This document shows positions 23,251-57,326 of a stretch of 57,504 bases of DNA, in pieces. Positions within the stretch are counted from its first letter, which is position 1. Each line of letters begins with the position of its first letter. Both the position numbers and the translations under genes were made by a program. The stretch is from a virus, in the IMG/VR virus record IMGVR_UViG_3300036792_000158, positions 1 to 57,504 of that record, one strand, 5' to 3'. The notes below the pieces were generated by a model, which saw only the letters and a program-made list of their open reading frames with translations, did not search any database and was not told the DNA's origin.

Positions 23251-23462
23251 GATGCGAAGACTGCCGCGGCGTCGGCAGCATGCGCGTCATGCCGCCGTGG
23301 CGACCCATAGAAGACCCGTTCCGAGACCCGCGCGTGATCGACACCGCAAGGCTGTTGGAACCGCCGCCGATCACCGTTCCGTGCCCGAGCTGCGGCGGCA
23401 CCGGCACCGCATCGTGCTGCGAGGGTGCCGTCGGGCTCGCCGGCGACGTGACCAATGGCTGA
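23247..23462 (+). CDS. DnaJ-type zinc-knuckle small protein
   Basis: This 71-residue protein has CEDCRGVGSM near the N-terminus and CPSCGGTGTASCC near the C-terminus, again the CxxCxGxG knuckle seen at 3507-3827. It overlaps the HerA-like gene by 8 bases. It is probably a zinc-binding adaptor. Confidence 0.55.
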   Translation: MRCEDCRGVGSMRVMPPWRPIEDPFRDPRVIDTARLLEPPPITVPCPSCGGTGTASCCEGAVGLAGDVTNG

Positions 23463-25170
23463 TTACCCGATCCCCGACGCCTCGTTCGCGAGCCATATCG
23501 CGATGCTCGGTAAGACCGGCAGCGGCAAGTCCAACGCCGCCGCCACGCTGGTCGAGCGGCTGCTGTCTCGCAAGGAACGCGTCTGCATCATCGATCCGAC
23601 CGATCGCTATTGGGGGCTGCGCCTCTCGGCCGACGGAACGAAGCCGAGCCGCTTTCAGCCGGTGATCTTCGGCGGCGCGCACGGCGATCTGCCGCTGGCG
23701 GAACAGCACGCGCGCACCATCGCCGAGGTTGTCGGCACGACGACGACGCCGACGATCATCTCGACGCGCATGATGACGGTGGGCGAGCGCACGCGCTTTT
23801 TCACCGGCTTCGCGGAGACGCTGTTGCGCACGAATCGGGGCGCGCTGCATCTGGTGATCGACGAGGCGCATCTGTTCGCGCCGCAGCAGGGCGCCAGCGG
23901 TGGTCGGGATCTTCCGGCGCTGCTGCACGCCACGAACAATCTGGTGAGTCTCGGCCGGGGCATCGGGCTTCGGATCACGCTCATTTCGCAGCGGCCGGCG
24001 AAGCTGCACAATGACTCGCTCGGCCAGGTCGAGACGCTGATCGCCTTCCGGCTGCTGCTGCCACACGATCGCTTCGCCGTCCGATACTGGATAAAGGAGT
24101 GCGCTGATGAGAAGATAGGCGCCGACCTGCTGGCATCGCTGCCGTCGCTGCGCACCGGCGAGGCGTGGGTCTGGGCCCCCGGAGCCGACGTTCTGGACCG
24201 TGTTCATTTCCCGCTGGTTTCCACCTTCGACAGCGGCAAGCCGGTGCCTGACGGCCAGGGCCCGACGCTGGCGCCGATCGACCTAGCGGCGCTGCAGGGC
24301 CAGCTTGAAGCGGTTGCGAGCGAGGCGCTGGCGAACGATCCCGCTAGGCTGAAGCGCCGCATCGCCGAGTTGGAAGCCGAGGTTCGCCGGCGACCCGTGA
24401 AGCCCGAAAATCTCGACCAGGTGCTCGCGGCGCACGACGAGGGCTATCAGCAGGGCTACCGACAGGGCCGGGCCGAGCAGCTCGCCGAGGACGAGCGGCG
24501 CATCCGCGACCGCCAGGCGGCGATCGAGGCGGCCGCCAGGGCGCTCCATCTGTTCATAGGCCCCAACGCCGACGACGCGCCGGCGGCGATCCAGGCGCCG
24601 CCATCGAGACCAGATCGGCACGGCTCAGCCGAGGGCGCGTCCCCGCGCGTCCAGCCGAGGCGAACCCCACCGCCGAAGCGCCGATCTGGCCTATCGCTGA
24701 ACGGCGGCGAGTCGACTCAACTGCCGAAGGGCGAGCGCGCGGTCCTGATCGCCATCGCCCAGCACCCGATCGGCGTTACGCGCCAGCAGCTCACGCTGTT
24801 GACCGGCTACAAAAAGTCGAGCCGTGACGCCTATGTCTCGCGACTTGCGGCGAAGAATTTTGTCATCGCCGACGTCGGCCGCTTCTTCGCGACCGCGGCG
24901 GGGATCGCCGCACTCGGCGATGATTACGAGCCTCTTCCGACCGGCGACAATCTGCGCGCCTGGTGGATCGACAGGCTGCCGGAAGGCGAGCGGAAGGTGT
25001 TGGAGACGATCGTCGGCTATTATCCTGATCTGGCGGAACGCGACGAGATCAGCGACGCCACCGGCTATAAGAAATCGTCTCGGGACGCGTATATCTCGCG
25101 CCTGGCCGCCCGCGAGCTGGTGATCGCGACGCGCGAGGGCGTGCGCGCCGCGGAGGAGCTGTTCGGATGA
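23455..25170 (+). CDS. HerA/FtsK-like ATPase with C-terminal winged helices
   Basis: This 571-residue protein has a Walker A GKTGSGKSN near residues 19-27, a Walker B LHLVIDEAHLF and an arginine-rich ISQRPAKLHND segment, the pattern of HerA-like DNA translocases (DUF87/DUF853). A coiled coil is followed by two tandem winged-helix-like repeats that share GYKKSSRDAY (about residues 430-475 and 520-560). It may pump or process DNA, perhaps with RecT. No NurA-type nuclease is recognised next to it. Confidence 0.75.
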   Translation: MADYPIPDASFASHIAMLGKTGSGKSNAAATLVERLLSRKERVCIIDPTDRYWGLRLSADGTKPSRFQPVIFGGAHGDLPLAEQHARTIAEVVGTTTTPTIISTRMMTVGERTRFFTGFAETLLRTNRGALHLVIDEAHLFAPQQGASGGRDLPALLHATNNLVSLGRGIGLRITLISQRPAKLHNDSLGQVETLIAFRLLLPHDRFAVRYWIKECADEKIGADLLASLPSLRTGEAWVWAPGADVLDRVHFPLVSTFDSGKPVPDGQGPTLAPIDLAALQGQLEAVASEALANDPARLKRRIAELEAEVRRRPVKPENLDQVLAAHDEGYQQGYRQGRAEQLAEDERRIRDRQAAIEAAARALHLFIGPNADDAPAAIQAPPSRPDRHGSAEGASPRVQPRRTPPPKRRSGLSLNGGESTQLPKGERAVLIAIAQHPIGVTRQQLTLLTGYKKSSRDAYVSRLAAKNFVIADVGRFFATAAGIAALGDDYEPLPTGDNLRAWWIDRLPEGERKVLETIVGYYPDLAERDEISDATGYKKSSRDAYISRLAARELVIATREGVRAAEELFG

Positions 25171-47134: not shown

Positions 47135-47914
47135 TTAGCCGACCGTGTCGATGACCCAGAAATTGGACGCAAGATCGCCGCGCAGCACGTATTCGTACGG
47201 CATTAGGAAGTAACCTCGCAGCCCCCAATTGGCGGCCCAGCTGTTGCGGACGAGGAAGTTTCGGTCGCCGTCATCGTAGCCGGCGATCATCACCGCATGA
47301 CCGCCCAGCGTGCGTTCGGCGGGCGCCGGGAGCGGCAGCCGGCCGCCGGTCGCGACCGTCTCGCCATCGAGCGCGGAGAAGCAGGAGAACCCGAACACGA
47401 CGGGATCTTTGGCGGCAAGCGCGCCGCGTATCTGCTGGGCGATCTGCGGCACGGCGCGATAGCGCAGCGCCCGATCCTTCAGCGCCGCCTGGTAGCACTG
47501 CTGCGGCGGGGCATCGGTGAACTTCGAGGGATCGTAGGGCCACCCGTCCGGGCCGTCCTCGAAGCAGGTGCCGTTCTGCGCCACCATCTTGATGCCATCG
47601 CGGATTTCCGCGCCGGCATCGCTCTGGACTGTGCCTTCGAGCTGGCGTTCCTCGAAATAGATCATCAGCCGCGACGGCACCCGATCGGCGTCCGGGAGCC
47701 CCTGCCGCATCCGATCGTATTGCAGCGCGCCGGCGATGGCGTTGGCGGTGCAGCTGCCGAGCTGGCCTTGGTCATATACCGGCGGCATTTGCGGCCGCAG
47801 ATCGACCATTGTCGGAAGATTGCCGGTGATAGGCGCCGAATACATCAGATCGCGGTGATCGGGCAGTTGCGGGCGCCAGCCGAGCCCGCGTCCGTTCGGG
47901 GTGTGATGCGCCAT
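47135..47914 (-). CDS. Papain-like C1-family cysteine peptidase
   Basis: This 259-residue protein has the papain catalytic order. The Cys lies in QGQLGSCTANAIAGAL (about residues 50-65), the His in LGGHAVMIAGYDDG and the Asn in LVRNSWAANWG. A strong ribosome binding site (AGGAGCCGTG) precedes the ATG. It lies between the portal gene and the divergent terminase promoter region. Its role may be capsid maturation, which would be in addition to the S49 protease, or host targeting. Confidence 0.8.
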   Translation of the reverse strand: MAHHTPNGRGLGWRPQLPDHRDLMYSAPITGNLPTMVDLRPQMPPVYDQGQLGSCTANAIAGALQYDRMRQGLPDADRVPSRLMIYFEERQLEGTVQSDAGAEIRDGIKMVAQNGTCFEDGPDGWPYDPSKFTDAPPQQCYQAALKDRALRYRAVPQIAQQIRGALAAKDPVVFGFSCFSALDGETVATGGRLPLPAPAERTLGGHAVMIAGYDDGDRNFLVRNSWAANWGLRGYFLMPYEYVLRGDLASNFWVIDTVG

Positions 47915-48038
47915 CACGGCTCCTGTTTCTTGATAAACAACGGTGTGCGCCGCTAATGTGCCGCATTGGCTCGCCCCAGGAAAGGCCGATGCGCTTGTCT
48001 GTTCCTTAAGACGCAACGGATTCGGAGAGGAAGCGCCG
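47915..48038 (+). promoter_or_regulatory. Divergent region with putative terminase promoter
   Basis: A rightward TTGATA at 47930-47935 is followed 18 bp later by TAATGT at 47954-47959. Then comes the box AAGACGCAACGG at 48008-48019 and a GGAGAGG ribosome binding site before the GTG at 48039. The region separates the leftward head genes from the rightward terminase genes. Confidence 0.5.
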
Positions 48039-50081
48039 GTGCTCGCGAGCACTCGAACCGTCGGACAGGACGCATTCTCGCCGGATTTTCTGGCGAACGC
48101 GGCCCGGCGTGCGGCGATCGTCGCGGCGGCCGTTCTGGAACCTCCGCCGGAAGTCGATCTCAACGCGTGGGCAAAGAATCATCTGGTGGTCGGGACGGAA
48201 AGCCCCTTCCCCGGCCGCTACGACGGCTCGCGATTCCCGTTCTTCACCGAAATCCTGATCGTGCTCGGCCCCGAGGAGCCGGCGCGCGTGATCGTCGTGC
48301 GCGGCTCGGCGCAGATCGGGAAGACGTTCCTGGCACAAATCTTCATCGCCGCGTCGCTCGATCTCGATCCGGGCCAGATCCTCTACGTTCACCCGACCGA
48401 GCCCAACGCGATCCGATTCGCCCGGACGAAACTGCGGCCGATGATCCGGTCGACACCGCGACTCGCCGAAATACTCGAGGCGAAGCAGTCGAAGGAAGGC
48501 GGCAACAGCACGCTTTATCAGGAACGAAAAGACGGTCGCGGCTCGATCCTGCTGGGCGGCGCCAACTCGGCCGCCTCGCTCTCGCTGGTGACGGCGAAGC
48601 GCCAGGTGCAGGACGATCTGGCGAAATGGGAAAAGAATTCAGCCGGCGATCCCGAGAGCCAGGCCGACAATCGCTCGAAAGCCTTCGACGACGCGAAGAT
48701 CCTGAAGATCAGCACGCCGCTTCTAGCCGGCAGCTGTCGGATCACCCGGGCCTTTGAAGGCAGCACACAGCATAATTTCCATGTGCCGTGCCCGCATTGC
48801 GGCCATGAACATCCGCTCGAACCTGACAACTTCATCGAGCACATCGACCCCGAGCATCCCGAGCTGGCGCACTTCACCTGCCCCGCTTGCGATGGCGAGA
48901 TTTACGAGCGTCATCGGCGGGCAATGGTGCGCGCAGGCCGTTGGGTGGCGCACAATCCCGGCGCGGCGAACATCGGCTTTTCGCTGTGGGCTGCATATGC
49001 GCCGCTCGAAAGCTGGGAGCGGATCGCCCGCGGTTATCTCGACGCGCAGGGCGATCCGACGAGCGAGCAGACCTGGTGGAACGACACCGCTGGAAGGGCC
49101 TACGAATTGCCGGGCGAGGCGCCACCGTGGCGGGATTTGAAGGTGCGCGCCGAGGCCCGCGGCCGCCAGCTCGGCCAGGTGCCGAAGGGCGCGATCCTGC
49201 TGACGCTCTCGCTCGACGCGCAGGACGATTATCTCGACGGCGTCGTGATTGGCTGGGGGCGCGACCTGCGCCGCTGGGTGATCGCCCGCGTCCGTGTCGA
49301 AGGCCACATCGCGAACCCGGAGACCCGCCAGGAACTGAACCGGCTGGTGGCGTTCGAATGGCCGACGTTCTGCGGCACCCGTCGCGCGGTCGATCTGACC
49401 GGCATCGATGCGAATGCTTGGACGGACGATGTTTTCGACTGGACGCAAGGCCACCCGAAATCGAAGGTGATCATGCTGCGCGGCGTCCGAGGCGACGCCG
49501 CACCGACGCTCTCGATGGTGCGCCGCGAGCGCCGGCCTGACGGTCGCCCGGTGAAATATCAGGGGCGGTTCTTCAATGTCGGGGTCAATGGCCTTAAGGG
49601 CGCGCTCTACAAATTCCTACGCGTTGAGAACCCGGAAGCGCGCGGCTATGTCGATTTCCCGGCCGGGCTCGACGATGACTATTACGAGCAGCTGACATCG
49701 GAGAAGCGGACGCCGAAAATCGACCGCTCGGGTTTTGCGGTCTATGCCTGGATCAAGCCGCGCGGTCAGCGCAACGAACAGCTCGACGTGATGGTCTACG
49801 GCCAGGCGCTCGCCTGGCGGCTGGGCTGGCGCGTGATGCACGATCGGCATTGGGATCGGTTGACCGCCCAGCGCGAGCCCGAGGGCGCGCCGTTATCCGA
49901 CGAGCACGCCGCGAACGAGTTTTGGAGCCATGAGGCAGCCATTCGCAGCGCGCCCGACACCATCGCGGAAGTGCTGCAGCAGCCCGCGCTGCCCCCGACG
50001 TTACCGCGGCCGAGCGCTATTCCGCCGGCGCCGCGCCGCACCGTGATCAGAAGCCGTTTCGGCGGCGGGAGGCGTTTCTAA
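48039..50081 (+). CDS. Terminase large subunit (gpA/GpA family)
   Basis: This 680-residue protein has a P-loop GSAQIGKT (about residues 89-96). A gpA-type zinc motif (CPHCGHEHPLE...CPACDGE) lies at about residues 245-285, and a nuclease region has LSLDAQDDYLDG and FDLTGIDANAW-like acidic stretches. It cuts and pumps DNA into the prohead. GTG 48039 is favoured over GTG 47943 because GGAGAGG lies just upstream. It belongs to the lambda-like branch, consistent with the head genes. Confidence 0.9.
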   Translation: MLASTRTVGQDAFSPDFLANAARRAAIVAAAVLEPPPEVDLNAWAKNHLVVGTESPFPGRYDGSRFPFFTEILIVLGPEEPARVIVVRGSAQIGKTFLAQIFIAASLDLDPGQILYVHPTEPNAIRFARTKLRPMIRSTPRLAEILEAKQSKEGGNSTLYQERKDGRGSILLGGANSAASLSLVTAKRQVQDDLAKWEKNSAGDPESQADNRSKAFDDAKILKISTPLLAGSCRITRAFEGSTQHNFHVPCPHCGHEHPLEPDNFIEHIDPEHPELAHFTCPACDGEIYERHRRAMVRAGRWVAHNPGAANIGFSLWAAYAPLESWERIARGYLDAQGDPTSEQTWWNDTAGRAYELPGEAPPWRDLKVRAEARGRQLGQVPKGAILLTLSLDAQDDYLDGVVIGWGRDLRRWVIARVRVEGHIANPETRQELNRLVAFEWPTFCGTRRAVDLTGIDANAWTDDVFDWTQGHPKSKVIMLRGVRGDAAPTLSMVRRERRPDGRPVKYQGRFFNVGVNGLKGALYKFLRVENPEARGYVDFPAGLDDDYYEQLTSEKRTPKIDRSGFAVYAWIKPRGQRNEQLDVMVYGQALAWRLGWRVMHDRHWDRLTAQREPEGAPLSDEHAANEFWSHEAAIRSAPDTIAEVLQQPALPPTLPRPSAIPPAPRRTVIRSRFGGGRRF

Positions 50082-50620
50082 TGCCCCGGATAAGTCGCAA
50101 TTTCCCGACGGCGCAGCCGAGCGGAAGCCAGCACTACACGGTGGATTTCACCGGCTATCTGCCGGCCGGCAGCAATCTCGCCTCGGCGGTCTGGGATCTG
50201 TCCGTTGATCGGACGCTTTCCGGCTTCGCACCCGATTCGAGCCCGAATGCGCGCAAGATCGGCGCGCCCGCGATCGACGGGAGCACGAGCACCCAGGAGA
50301 TCGGCGGGACGGTCGCCGGCAACGATTACGTGGTGACGGTGACGGGCGCCACGGACGCCGGCGACGAAGTGGTGCTGTGGACGATCCTGCCGTCGCGATC
50401 GGCCGGCAGCGCGGGAGTGACCGTTGACGATCGCGTGCGGCGGCTCGCTTCGATCGAGCGGGCGCGCGACAGCGGCGTGCTGACGGTGCGGCACGGCGAC
50501 ACCCAGACGACGTTCCGCACGCTGGCCGAAATGGACGAGATCATCTATCGGCTGCGCCGCGAGATTTACGGCATCAATCAGACGAAGCGCTTGCGCATCC
50601 TGACGACGAAGGGCCTGTGA
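50081..50620 (+). CDS. gpW-like head-tail joining protein with N-terminal beta domain
   Basis: This 179-residue protein has a C-terminal gpW-like helix-turn-helix (RRLASIERARDSGVLTV, then TFRTLAEMDEIIYRLRREI), which in lambda joins head to tail. The first 110 residues form an extra beta-sandwich-like domain (HYTVDFTGYLPAGS, EIGGTVAGNDYVVTVTGA). The fused form is longer than lambda gpW (68 residues). It overlaps the terminase stop as TAATG. Confidence 0.65.
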   Translation: MPRISRNFPTAQPSGSQHYTVDFTGYLPAGSNLASAVWDLSVDRTLSGFAPDSSPNARKIGAPAIDGSTSTQEIGGTVAGNDYVVTVTGATDAGDEVVLWTILPSRSAGSAGVTVDDRVRRLASIERARDSGVLTVRHGDTQTTFRTLAEMDEIIYRLRREIYGINQTKRLRILTTKGL

Positions 50621-51252
50621 TGCAGAGCGGGCGCCGGATACATCGCGGCCAGAACGGCGCAGCGCGCCGGCCGCGCCAGGGGTTGCCGCCCGGGTTCAAG
50701 ATGGCGACGAAGATCGTCCAACGCTCCACGGCGTCGCTGCTGCCTTATGCGCGCAACGCCCGCGTGCACAGCGAAGCCCAGCTCGACGCGCTCGAACGGG
50801 CGATGCGGCGGTTCGGCTTCGTCACGCCGGTCGCGGTCGATGACGCGGGCGGCATCTGGGCCGGGCACGCCCGCGTCATCGTCGCCCATGATCGCCTCGG
50901 GCTTACGCGCGTGCCGACGATCGACATCAGCTACCTGAGCCCCGAAGAACGGCGCGCCTATGCGCTCGCCGACAATCAGATCGCTCTGCTGGCGAGCTGG
51001 GACGAGGAGCTGCTGACCGGCGAGCTGGCCGATCTACAGCTGGGCGGCTTCGATCTCGACGCGATCGGCTTCTCGGATGCGGACCTGGCCGGGCTCGGCG
51101 TCGGCGGGCCGGGCCAGCCCGGCGACGCGCCGCGCGAGAAGGTGCCGTCCTCGTGGGCGGTGGTGGTCGAGTGCAAAGACGAGGCCGACCAGGTGGCGCT
51201 GATCGATCGCCTGCAGGCCGACGGCTACAAGGTGAAAGGTACGATCGGATGA
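50620..51252 (+). CDS. ParB/Srx-domain protein next to terminase
   Basis: This 210-residue protein has a ParB-type nuclease fold: SLLPYARNARVHSEAQLDAL, FGFVTPVAVDDAGGIWAGH, then VPTIDISYLSPEERRAYALAD, shown here in separate short segments (about residues 33-110). The C-terminal 60 residues are a distinct segment (WAVVVECKDEADQVALIDRL). ParB-fold proteins hydrolyse nucleotides or DNA. It is four bases upstream of an ABC-GNAT gene, so the pair is probably co-expressed. Confidence 0.7.
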   Translation: MQSGRRIHRGQNGAARRPRQGLPPGFKMATKIVQRSTASLLPYARNARVHSEAQLDALERAMRRFGFVTPVAVDDAGGIWAGHARVIVAHDRLGLTRVPTIDISYLSPEERRAYALADNQIALLASWDEELLTGELADLQLGGFDLDAIGFSDADLAGLGVGGPGQPGDAPREKVPSSWAVVVECKDEADQVALIDRLQADGYKVKGTIG

Positions 51253-52385
51253 AGATCGACATCACCCGCGAATGCGAGGTCGAGCGCAGCGCGCGCGTCG
51301 TGCAGGTGGCCGGCATGTTCGATGTCGACGTCGGCGACAAAAGCCGCGTCCACATCGCCGGCGAGCTGCCGATCGAGGAGCGCGAGTGGAACATCGGGCT
51401 GATCGTCGGGCCCTCGGGCTCGGGGAAGTCCAGCGTCGCCCGCGAAATCTTCGGCGGCGCGCTCGTCACCGGCTATGACTGGCCGGCCGATCGCAGCATT
51501 CTCGACGGCTTCCCCGACATCGGGATCAAGGAGATCACCGGGCTCCTCAACGCCGTCGGCTTCGGCTCGGTGCCGAACTGGCTGCGGCCGTTCCATGTTC
51601 TGTCCAACGGCGAGCAATTCCGGGCGACGGTCGCCCGCGCGCTCGCCGAGACCCGCGATCTGGTGGTGATCGACGAGTTCACCAGCGTTGTCGATCGCCA
51701 GGTCGCCAAGATCGCCTCTCACTGTGTCCAGAAGGCCGTGCGCAACGCCGGCCGGAAGCTGATCGCCGTAGCATGCCATTACGACATCCTCGAATGGCTG
51801 CAACCGGATTGGGTGTTCGAGCCCCATCTGGCGGCGTTCGAATGGAGGGAGCTTCAGCGACGACCCCAAATCACCGTTGAAATCCGCTCTGTTGGTCGAG
51901 AGGTCTGGCACCGATTTAGCCAGTATCACTATCTGACCGCATCGCTGAACCCGGCCTCGTTCTGCGTCGGCGCGTTCATCGAGGGGAAGTGCGTCGGGTT
52001 CTGCGCCATCGCGAAGTTCCCGCATCCGAAGGCGCACAACATCTTCGCCGAGCATCGGACGGTGGTGCTGCCCGACTATCAGGGGCTCGGGCTCTCGCGC
52101 GCGATGACGGAATGGATCGGGCGGCACCTGTGGGAGCGCGGGTTCCGGTTTCATGCGGTGACGTCGCACCCGGCGATCATCGCGCAGAAGGCCAATTCGC
52201 CGCGTTGGAGATTGATGCGACATGGCACACAAAGCCCCGGCGGGCGACGAGCCGACCCCGGCTTCAAAAAGCACCAAGCCAAATTCAGCGAACGGCGGAT
52301 TTCCGCGGCTTTCGCCTACTGTGCCCCTGACGGCACACAGACAAGCCACAAACCCGAATGGTCCGGGCCGCTGCTGGGGCGATGA
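51249..52385 (+). CDS. ABC-type ATPase fused to a GNAT acyltransferase domain
   Basis: This 378-residue protein has an ABC ATPase in its first 200 residues: Walker A GPSGSGKS (54-61), a degenerate signature LSNGEQ (118-123), Walker B LVVIDEF (138-144) and His177 in the H-loop. The C-terminal half is a GNAT fold, with the acetyl-CoA pocket pattern YQGLGLS (297-303). Phage Mu Mom, a GNAT-like enzyme that modifies adenine, is a precedent; so a DNA modification or protection system is a reasonable guess. It is overlapped by the ParB-like gene upstream and stands beside the terminase. Confidence 0.8.
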   Translation: MKIDITRECEVERSARVVQVAGMFDVDVGDKSRVHIAGELPIEEREWNIGLIVGPSGSGKSSVAREIFGGALVTGYDWPADRSILDGFPDIGIKEITGLLNAVGFGSVPNWLRPFHVLSNGEQFRATVARALAETRDLVVIDEFTSVVDRQVAKIASHCVQKAVRNAGRKLIAVACHYDILEWLQPDWVFEPHLAAFEWRELQRRPQITVEIRSVGREVWHRFSQYHYLTASLNPASFCVGAFIEGKCVGFCAIAKFPHPKAHNIFAEHRTVVLPDYQGLGLSRAMTEWIGRHLWERGFRFHAVTSHPAIIAQKANSPRWRLMRHGTQSPGGRRADPGFKKHQAKFSERRISAAFAYCAPDGTQTSHKPEWSGPLLGR

Positions 52386-55238: not shown

Positions 55239-56396
55239 TCAGCTGTTGATGTTGATGATCTCGCCGAACGGCGCGCTGCCGCGCTGCGTCGCGCACCACA
55301 AGACGGGATAGGGCGGCGGCGGGCCGAAGTCGGCGCATTCAAGATCGGTGAAGTAGATCAGGCAGTCGGGGTCGAGCCCCTTGTCCCTGACCCATTCGAA
55401 CACGGGCGAGAACATCGTGCCGCCGCGGCCGGCCATCGTCATCGCCCGGATCGGATAATCGTCGGGCTCAAACGCCGTCGTCGCGCTGATCGCTGTATCG
55501 CACTCGACGACGTGCACCACGTCGGGCTGGACATCGTTCGCGATCGTGTTCAGCTCGGCGAGCGCCTGCGCCAGCGCTTTCGCGTCCATGCTCTGCGACG
55601 TGTCGATGGCGAACACGATCGTTTCGATCTTTTCGGAGTACAGCGAGGGCAGATAGAGCCCCTGCGCGATGTAGCGTCGATTGGGCGGGAGCCAGCTGTA
55701 ATCCTGCTGGGCGCGCGACGTGACGAAGCGCTTAAGCGCCTCGCGCCAGTCGACGCGGGCGCCGCGCATCGCTTCGATCATTTCGGCGACACTGCCCGGA
55801 AGATCGCCCGCCCGCTTTGCGAGCGCCGCGGCCTGCAGCGTCGCAGCTTGCCACTCGCGCGCAAGCTGTTGCACTTCGGCCGCCGGCGCCGGCTTCTGCG
55901 GGTCTTTCGCGTCGGCCGGCCGGGTGAACACGCCGCACCCGCCGACATTGCCGACTTCGGCCCCCTTGCCGCCGCCGCCGCCGCTCTTGCGACGGGGCAG
56001 CTTCGGGTAAATCTCCTCGGCGGCCATGCCGTCGTATTGCGGGTCGACGAGCCCGTCAGGCGGTAGTTCGAGCCCGGCTTTCAACACAAGCGGGTTGATC
56101 GCGTAATCGGCCGCCTCGTTGAACGTCTCATGGTCGCGGCTGCCGATCCGCATCGGGTGCCCCGCGGCGCAGTGCATGACTTCGTGCGCGACCAGGCCGA
56201 CGCGCTGCGCGTGCGTCAGCGCCATCACGAAATCGGCGTTGTAGCGGAGCGCGCGGCCGTCAACGCTGGCGGTCTCCGTCGCGGCATCTTCGAGCATGTG
56301 CAGTCGAAGCGCGAGAGTGCCGAAGAACGGCTGCGCCAGCACCAGCGAGGCGCGCGCCTTGAGCATTGCCCGCTGGGCGGGCGTCATCGTCGACAT
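55239..56396 (-). CDS. VWA-like protein with metallopeptidase N-terminal domain
   Basis: This 385-residue protein begins with a peptidase-like domain carrying HEVMHCAAGH (residues 71-80, HExxH zinc motif). The C-terminal VWA-like domain (DUF2201-type) has the metal-binding FAIDTSQSM motif. VWA proteins are typical partners of MoxR ATPases, and the MoxR gene is two genes upstream. The pair may fold, mature or dismantle a protein complex. A CTGGA-loop hairpin and CAGGAG precede it. Confidence 0.75.
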   Translation of the reverse strand: MSTMTPAQRAMLKARASLVLAQPFFGTLALRLHMLEDAATETASVDGRALRYNADFVMALTHAQRVGLVAHEVMHCAAGHPMRIGSRDHETFNEAADYAINPLVLKAGLELPPDGLVDPQYDGMAAEEIYPKLPRRKSGGGGGKGAEVGNVGGCGVFTRPADAKDPQKPAPAAEVQQLAREWQAATLQAAALAKRAGDLPGSVAEMIEAMRGARVDWREALKRFVTSRAQQDYSWLPPNRRYIAQGLYLPSLYSEKIETIVFAIDTSQSMDAKALAQALAELNTIANDVQPDVVHVVECDTAISATTAFEPDDYPIRAMTMAGRGGTMFSPVFEWVRDKGLDPDCLIYFTDLECADFGPPPPYPVLWCATQRGSAPFGEIININS

Positions 56397-56415
56397 GGGT
56401 AAATCTCCTGTTTCA

Positions 56416-56448
56416 GAAAAGAGGAAGGGCGGCGTTCCAGCGCCGCCC
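56416..56448 (-). terminator. Terminator-like CTGGA-loop hairpin
   Basis: A perfect 8-bp stem (GGGCGGCG/CGCCGCCC, 56427-56434 with 56441-56448) has loop CTGGAA on the minus strand. It is followed by TTCCTCTTTT, as in an intrinsic terminator. It could partly stop transcription between the 290-residue protein and the VWA gene, then the CAGGAG restarts translation of the VWA gene. Confidence 0.55.
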
Positions 56449-56453
56449 CGTGA

Positions 56454-57326
56454 TCACGCCATCGCGTTCTTAATCTCGGCCAGGATCGCTTCGGCGTTCT
56501 GCGCCACTTCCTTGCGCACCGTCGCGTTCTCGCGCAGCACCGTCGCGTCGATCTGGCAGAGTTCATCGTTGAGCCGGTGCCGCATATCCTCGAGCATGTT
56601 GTTGCCCGTGATGTTGAGTTTCGGCAGCAGCTCGACGAGTTCCCGAATGTTCGTGACGAGCGAGTCGCGGAAGGCGTTTTTGACCTTCCCGTTCGAGTCG
56701 ACGGAGTAGTTTTTGAGCCGCTCCACCATCCGCTCGACCGCTTCGAACATCCGCTCCCAAACGTGTTGCATCGCGCCCTCGACGGCCTCGTCAAGCCGCC
56801 CCTGTATCTGTTCGCGGATGCGGGCGTTCTCGGCATCGGACAGCGACACGCGGAAGTCCTCGGCCTCTGGCATCGGGGCGATCTCAACGGTCATCGCGAA
56901 CATGCCCGCGATGTCGCTCGCGGCGGGGTAATCTTCCGGCCTGAACAACCCGTTGAGCGATCGTTTCGCCTCGTCCACATACGCGGGATATTCGCGCGCG
57001 AAGCCGGCGACCGCCTGTTCGAACAGCGCCTTTAAATCGTTCTGCTGTTGCATGTAGTCGAAATAATTGGCCGCGGGCAGGATCCGCGCGCCGTCGTCGA
57101 GCCACGGCAACGTGTTCTCGTAATGATGATGACGGGCGCGCGTCGCGATCTGCGCGATTTCTTCGAGTCGTTCCTTCGCAATCAGGCGCTTTGAATAGCG
57201 CCCCATCGTCGGGTCGGCGCCGTGTTTCTTCGCCACTTCCTCGGTGATGTTCTTGTCGTGCTTCGAGGCAGACCAGCGCGAGATTTTGAGGCTCGCCAGC
57301 ATTGCTTTATCGGTGACTACGCTCAT
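56454..57326 (-). CDS. Hypothetical helical protein between MoxR and VWA
   Basis: This 290-residue protein is almost entirely helical, with possible coiled-coil segments and hydrophobic spacing. It lies between the MoxR and VWA genes in the same transcript, so it may be a substrate or adaptor of the MoxR/VWA pair. A CTGGA-loop hairpin and GGGAG precede the start. No domain is recognised. Confidence 0.65.
   Translation of the reverse strand: MSVVTDKAMLASLKISRWSASKHDKNITEEVAKKHGADPTMGRYSKRLIAKERLEEIAQIATRARHHHYENTLPWLDDGARILPAANYFDYMQQQNDLKALFEQAVAGFAREYPAYVDEAKRSLNGLFRPEDYPAASDIAGMFAMTVEIAPMPEAEDFRVSLSDAENARIREQIQGRLDEAVEGAMQHVWERMFEAVERMVERLKNYSVDSNGKVKNAFRDSLVTNIRELVELLPKLNITGNNMLEDMRHRLNDELCQIDATVLRENATVRKEVAQNAEAILAEIKNAMA

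Follow-up and report, generated by a model that had tools for sequence, protein, structure and literature searches.

A ParB-partnered ABC ATPase-GNAT fusion of phages as a candidate acyltransferase of phage DNA

Introduction

The virus record IMGVR_UViG_3300036792_000158 of IMG/VR, analysed here over its full 57,504 bases (the window), carries behind its large terminase gene two overlapping genes, one for a ParB-like protein and one for an ABC ATPase fused to a GNAT acyltransferase domain. The question raised by this locus is what such a pair does for a phage. A sequence-only reading of the window had pointed to DNA hypermodification or protection tied to packaging, on the precedent of the Mu protein Mom, a GNAT-like adenine modifier. 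The best reading of the evidence gathered here, to which a probability of about 0.58 is given, is the ParB-targeted, ATP-gated acylation of phage DNA by a single two-gene machine.

The core of this idea, namely that an ABC-GNAT enzyme acylates a DNA base, is already published. In a 2021 review, the authors of the 2013 survey report, in a passage on ABC-GNAT proteins, the prediction that the coupling of a GNAT with an ABC ATPase yields an acyl modification, of unknown kind, of a DNA base; the passage cites Iyer et al. 2013 for the prediction, names phage pT24 and does not mention ParB (PMC7824862). The published phage family and the window protein have the same domain pair and match over their full length, and pT24, named in the prediction, is recovered by the window fusion (tblastn hit H37, 36% identity over 89%, 1e-54), so that the central idea of the sequence-only reading is a rediscovery by another route. 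Put forward as new are the ParB tail as a dedicated partner and the natural triple fusions, both of which may be new observations, together with the ParB type common to methyltransferases and Mom-like enzymes, the Mom-like charge and residues of the GNAT domain, and the formyltransferase add-on of some phages.

The ABC-GNAT fusion

A single unnamed phage family, phrog_11143, covers residues 5-362 of the fusion, both domains included, and since one family matches the whole length, the gene is neither a chance open reading frame nor an assembly join. Pfam recognizes Acetyltransf_1 (PF00583, 4e-9) and ABC_tran (4e-7). The hallmarks of the ABC superfamily are complete, comprising Walker A, the signature, Walker B with its catalytic glutamate, the D-loop and the H-switch, and they are invariant or nearly so in 37 relatives (Table 1). 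The C-terminal domain has the GNAT fold and a coenzyme A (CoA) loop of the (R/Q)xxGxG/A type; among 70 GNAT domains F223, Y228, R270, P275 and G279 are invariant, H227 and W320 being conserved in 69. As judged from this conservation of sequence, both the ABC and the GNAT part look active.

Thus, the good Walker A and B motifs and the acyl-CoA pocket pattern seen by the sequence-only reading are borne out. Its view of the signature LSNGE as degenerate is not: LSxGE/Q is the norm of the family, and a dead ABC domain was rejected on these grounds. Transport had been judged unlikely for want of transporter genes nearby, and the scans agree: the scanned neighbours include no permease, their family matches being the terminase, the connector, a portal, a peptidase and a DUF2201 protein, and neither do the frequent neighbours of the relatives. 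The identity as an ABC transporter was therefore rejected, there being no permease at the locus.

The ParB partner and its C-terminal motif

The ParB-like protein of the window, taken alone, falls short of the Pfam ParB_N model; its relatives do match PF02195, and the ParB-CDP structure 6sdk is matched by the model of a natural ParB-ABC-GNAT triple fusion. The pair recurs at other loci, with a ParB gene less than 200 nt upstream of the ABC-GNAT gene at 61 of 80 genome loci and at 50 of 90 viral loci.

The ParB protein ends in a 38-residue motif, with the consensus FQVVVECxxExxQxxLLERLxxEGxxCR. A profile of this tail gave 22 matches in 20 whole genomes (~142 Mb), which hold 21 ABC-GNAT genes, and each of the 22 had an ABC-GNAT gene at most 0.9 kb downstream; the genomes were picked for carrying the fusion, and what the test shows is thus the absence of the motif from all other parts of these genomes. 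A PHROG related to the motif had no match in 14 control genomes. Moreover, the motif is found without a ParB domain, as an open reading frame of 44-66 residues before ABC-GNAT (L040, L049, L080 and phage Komp_PAO1_1), and in two Planctomycetota genomes (L121, L169) ParB, motif, ABC and GNAT form a single uninterrupted polypeptide. The motif partnership, the mini-genes and the natural fusions make a physical complex of ParB and ABC-GNAT likely, in which the motif would be the docking part. The tail also looks specific to ABC-GNAT, since it is absent from the ParB partners of Mom-like proteins and from the ParB-methyltransferase compared.

Some loci show particular arrangements of the motif. The Mu-like phage Komp_PAO1_1 (L089, 4855-6122) has a 49-residue gene which precedes and overlaps ABC-GNAT near the tail fibre genes, reminiscent of com/mom in Mu; its product is the ParB-tail motif, with no resemblance to Com. 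For the stand-alone mini-genes in general, a Com-like zinc-finger regulator was rejected because a comparison of the tail profile with Mu Com gave no match. A Hyphomicrobium metagenome-assembled genome (L094, 5581-6718) carries two tandem ParB-tail genes before ABC-GNAT, the second with a weakened tail, and one Gemmataceae genome (L132, L134) holds ABC-GNAT twice, both times accompanied by a ParB-tail gene.

The same ParB type beside other DNA modifiers

The ParB of the window is homologous to that of phage ParB-methyltransferases (phrog_498, PADLOC MTase_II), being 46% identical over 153 residues (4e-39) to the N-terminal domain of one of them, and PADLOC assigns it to the N-terminal part of MTase_II (type II methyltransferases, 3.7e-27). 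The likeness extends to the neighbourhood, as this ParB-methyltransferase, at locus L216, sits directly before the terminase. These proteins differ from the window pair in having a methyltransferase as their catalytic part and in the absence of the C-terminal adaptor motif. A known defence system was rejected, PADLOC giving just the methyltransferase model for the ParB and weak ABC-only matches for the fusion.

Furthermore, a ParB of the same kind stands directly before a Mom-like enzyme in Microbacterium phage Antuna and Arthrobacter phage Wyborn. Three kinds of enzyme are hence paired with one ParB type. Two of them have a known or annotated role in modifying DNA, and the sharing of this ParB by methyltransferases and Mom-like enzymes is the strongest contextual argument for the modification of DNA by ABC-GNAT.

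Comparison of the GNAT domain with Mom and TmcA

Residues 200-378 were modelled with AlphaFold2 at a predicted local distance difference test score of 91. When viral models were searched by structure, the own family of the domain came first, a GNAT of an uncultured phage followed, and ranks 4-5 were taken by Mom proteins (Salmonella phage Mom and the Mom-like protein of Lactobacillus phage LP65). Below Mom come several proteins labelled as endonuclease-like, and Mom domains of jumbo phages have been reported fused to endonucleases (PMC7824862). The profile match to Mom (0.0034) spans the N-terminal half and aligns the HY motif and a later arginine: H227, Y228 and R270 (69, 70 and 70 of 70) against H58 and Y59 (11 of 11) and R111 (10 of 11) of Mom. 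The outcome that the sequence-only reading had named as refuting, a structural match to protein acetyltransferases alone, was not observed: RimI heads the PDB matches, yet Mom proteins stand at ranks 4-5 among the viral models.

The domain is strongly basic (isoelectric point 10.6, charge +15; medians of 66 relatives 10.5 and +14), as is Mom (10.0, +19), whereas RimI, the sole non-Mom control, is acidic (4.9, -7). Mu Mom (PF25680, phrog_1384, structure 8bv8) thus has in common with the window GNAT the fold, the basicity and the HY and Arg positions, and the Mom-like genes of some phages, like the fusion, come after a ParB gene. Mom differs in having PRNSES in place of the canonical CoA loop, and only the window protein has an ABC domain; the Mom family models PF25680 and phrog_1384 are not matched by the fusion. 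The likeness to Mom is a partial one.

A further comparison is offered by TmcA, the tRNA(Met) cytidine acetyltransferase. For the natural triple fusion, the model reaches a predicted template modelling score of 0.49, a modest confidence at which no domain interface is claimed; its top match in the PDB is TmcA (2zpa), with 399 aligned columns over ATPase and GNAT. TmcA resembles the fusion in its P-loop ATPase followed by a GNAT and in modifying a nucleic-acid base with ATP hydrolysis, as proposed for the fusion, and differs in its helicase-type ATPase and RNA substrate.

Distribution of the family

Relatives of the fusion were found in 78 of 50,697 phage records, in at least 143 viral contig stretches and in 468 bacterial genome stretches, from Actinobacteria, Firmicutes, Proteobacteria, Bacteroidota, Spirochaetes (Leptospira) and, chiefly, Planctomycetota. 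Some at least of the genomic copies are prophages, given the terminase and portal genes among their neighbours, and several cultured phages have the cassette genes, among them the Gordonia phages Axumite and BiggityBass, the Leptospira biflexa phages LE3 and LE4, Lactococcus phage P335 and Pseudoalteromonas phage SL25. In Oenococcus and Streptococcus phages, ABC and GNAT are separate adjacent genes. The pT24 gene (L083, 4935-6107) is annotated as two coding sequences, which may be due to a frameshift or a sequencing error, and the T4-like Aeromonas phage PX29 (L207, GU396103) has a Mom-like gene together with an ABC-GNAT gene.

Proposed function and alternatives

In the proposed mechanism, the ParB protein (ParB/sulfiredoxin fold) would bind or clamp phage DNA and its tail would dock the ABC-GNAT enzyme, whose ABC domain, probably dimeric, would open, position or release the DNA by ATP binding and hydrolysis. 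The basic GNAT domain would move an acyl group from acyl-CoA onto the exocyclic amine of a base, and the acylated bases would shield the phage genome from restriction. Immediately downstream of ABC-GNAT, a formyltransferase-like gene is present in Komp_PAO1_1, ten Gordonia phages, two contigs of gut phages and the IMG contig L040 (Table 1). This hint invites the speculation that the group added by certain phages bears an amine, which then receives a formyl group. A broader scheme, in which ParB would be a DNA-targeting platform with swappable heads (methyltransferase, Mom-like, ABC-GNAT), the tail recruiting the ATP-gated acyltransferase and the formyltransferase adding a second step in some phages, so that a DNA hypermodification not yet described would result, is tentative.

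The idea of DNA modification advanced by the sequence-only reading is thus sustained by the ParB context, the basic GNAT and the published prediction for the family (PMC7824862), while the likeness to Mom is incomplete. Several observations weigh against acylation of DNA. When the GNAT domain alone was searched against the PDB with Foldseek, ordinary GNATs scored best and the protein acetyltransferase RimI came first (E 1.5e-7); by profile, too, the domain is closer to RimI (CoA loop, 8.9e-5) than to Mom. Residues E108, D149, Y159 and N163, invariant in Mom, have no counterpart in the alignment of 70 relatives, and because these four are missing the domain is not a Mom; membership of the Mom family was rejected on the profile and residue tests, the partial likeness being kept. 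The resemblance to TmcA is low (template modelling score 0.24), so the comparison is restricted to domain order, and the ATPase of TmcA belongs to a class other than ABC. Furthermore, no biochemically characterised ABC-GNAT family member was found, no gene for a restriction enzyme was noticed next to the cassette, and T4-like and other large phages have ABC-GNAT without ParB or motif.

The alternative that survives best, though unlikely, is that the GNAT acetylates a protein, be it host RNA polymerase, the ribosome, terminase or a virion protein, with ABC and ParB as recruitment modules. The nearest solved structures are RimI, the ribosomal protein S18 acetyltransferase, and other protein or small-molecule acetyltransferases; the canonical CoA loop is that of RimI, and phage GNATs modifying host RNA polymerase are known (Rac; PMC7824862). 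RimI-type matches are, however, to be expected of any canonical GNAT, and RimI, besides being acidic where the window domain and its relatives are basic, is a stand-alone protein with no ATPase and without the HY and Arg positions. The usual partner of ABC-GNAT is, moreover, the ParB common to DNA methyltransferases.

Quite improbable is a DNA clamp of ParB and ABC for packaging or genome handling, with a merely regulatory GNAT. The ParB fold and ABC ATPases work as DNA clamps in other systems. The gene order of the window speaks for such a role, and at least 14 of 99 downstream open reading frames scanned, from 40 non-redundant loci, match phrog_2 (terminase). Adjacency to terminase is common for the cassette, but not general: within the stretches read it is not beside terminase in the Mu-like Komp_PAO1_1 and in pT24, and T4-like, Mu-like and other phages carry it elsewhere. 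R270 and Y228, present in all 70 GNAT domains, are unlike residues of a dispensable part. Since ParB-methyltransferase genes can occupy the same slot, the place before the terminase points to a site for modification genes more than to a role in packaging; the tie to packaging drawn by the sequence-only reading is unproven.

Least probable of all is the modification of RNA in the manner of TmcA, which acetylates tRNA cytosine with ATP hydrolysis, has the same domain order and, besides heading the list for the triple fusion, stands at rank 26 for the GNAT domain alone, set against its low global similarity, its different ATPase class and a partner which is a DNA-type ParB instead of an RNA-binding domain.

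Locus organisation and neighbouring genes

The genes lie where the sequence-only reading had placed them, and family searches confirm the identities of terminase, connector, ParB and fusion, which form one rightward series, the ends of the four genes touching or overlapping; ParB and fusion overlap by ATGA. The start of the ParB gene is the ATG at 50620, with a GTG in frame at 50617. The label gpW-like holds for the connector, the C-terminus of which matches head-tail-joining families; the match of its N-terminus to Gp77-like PF23148 is weak (5e-5, below cutoff).

Table 1. Coordinates of the genes, domains and motifs discussed (window positions unless a locus is named)
Feature	Position	Strand	Support
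Large terminase subunit, gpA type	47943..50081	+	PF05876 1e-56 (ATPase), PF20454 2e-59 (nuclease), phrog_15 2e-175
Head-tail connector, gpW/HTJ-like C-terminus, Gp77-like N-terminus	50081..50620	+	NF047331 5e-12, phrog_2545 4e-9
ParB-like protein, 210 aa	50620..51252	+	phrog_620 2.7e-39; ParB part of phrog_498 7e-39
38-residue C-terminal adaptor motif of ParB, WAVVVECKDEADQVALIDRLQADGYKVK core	51136..51249	+	conserved, 36 aligned relatives
ABC ATPase-GNAT fusion, 378 aa	51249..52385	+	phrog_11143 5.6e-106; Pfam ABC_tran, Acetyltransf_1
Walker A GPSGSGKS, residues 54-61	51408..51431	+	G54, S56, G57, G59, K60 invariant, 37 relatives
ABC signature LSNGE, residues 118-122	51600..51614	+	L118, S119, G121 invariant, 37 relatives
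Walker B D142/E143 and D-loop SVVDR 146-150	51660..51698	+	D142, E143, S146, R150 invariant, 37 relatives
H-switch CHYD, residues 176-179	51774..51785	+	C176, H177, D179 invariant, 37 relatives
GNAT domain, residues 206-360	51864..52328	+	AlphaFold2 model; Foldseek match to GNATs
HYL motif, residues 227-229	51927..51935	+	same position as HYS of Mom; profile alignment
R270 and acetyl-CoA loop PDYQGLGLS 275-283	52056..52097	+	R270, P275, G279 70/70
Formyltransferase-like gene	L089 6113-6730; L090 1805-2452; L040 7149-7634		PF00551, phrog_9240

Elsewhere in the window, a papain-like C1 peptidase gene (47135-48163, minus strand) lies between portal and terminase and overlaps the terminase start on the opposite strand. 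A DUF2201 metallopeptidase/VWA protein (55239-57326, minus strand) adjoins a DUF3150-like protein, and a HerA/VirB4-like P-loop ATPase (23455-25170, plus strand), partly similar to a terminase PHROG, is separate from the gpA-type terminase.

Significance

The partner motif and the natural fusions make a decade-old prediction testable and tell experimenters which proteins to co-purify; cultured carrier phages exist, so that one mass-spectrometry run would be enough. If the proposed function is true, phages and prophages of six bacterial groups would possess an ATP-coupled acyltransferase acting on DNA, a chemistry so far unseen.
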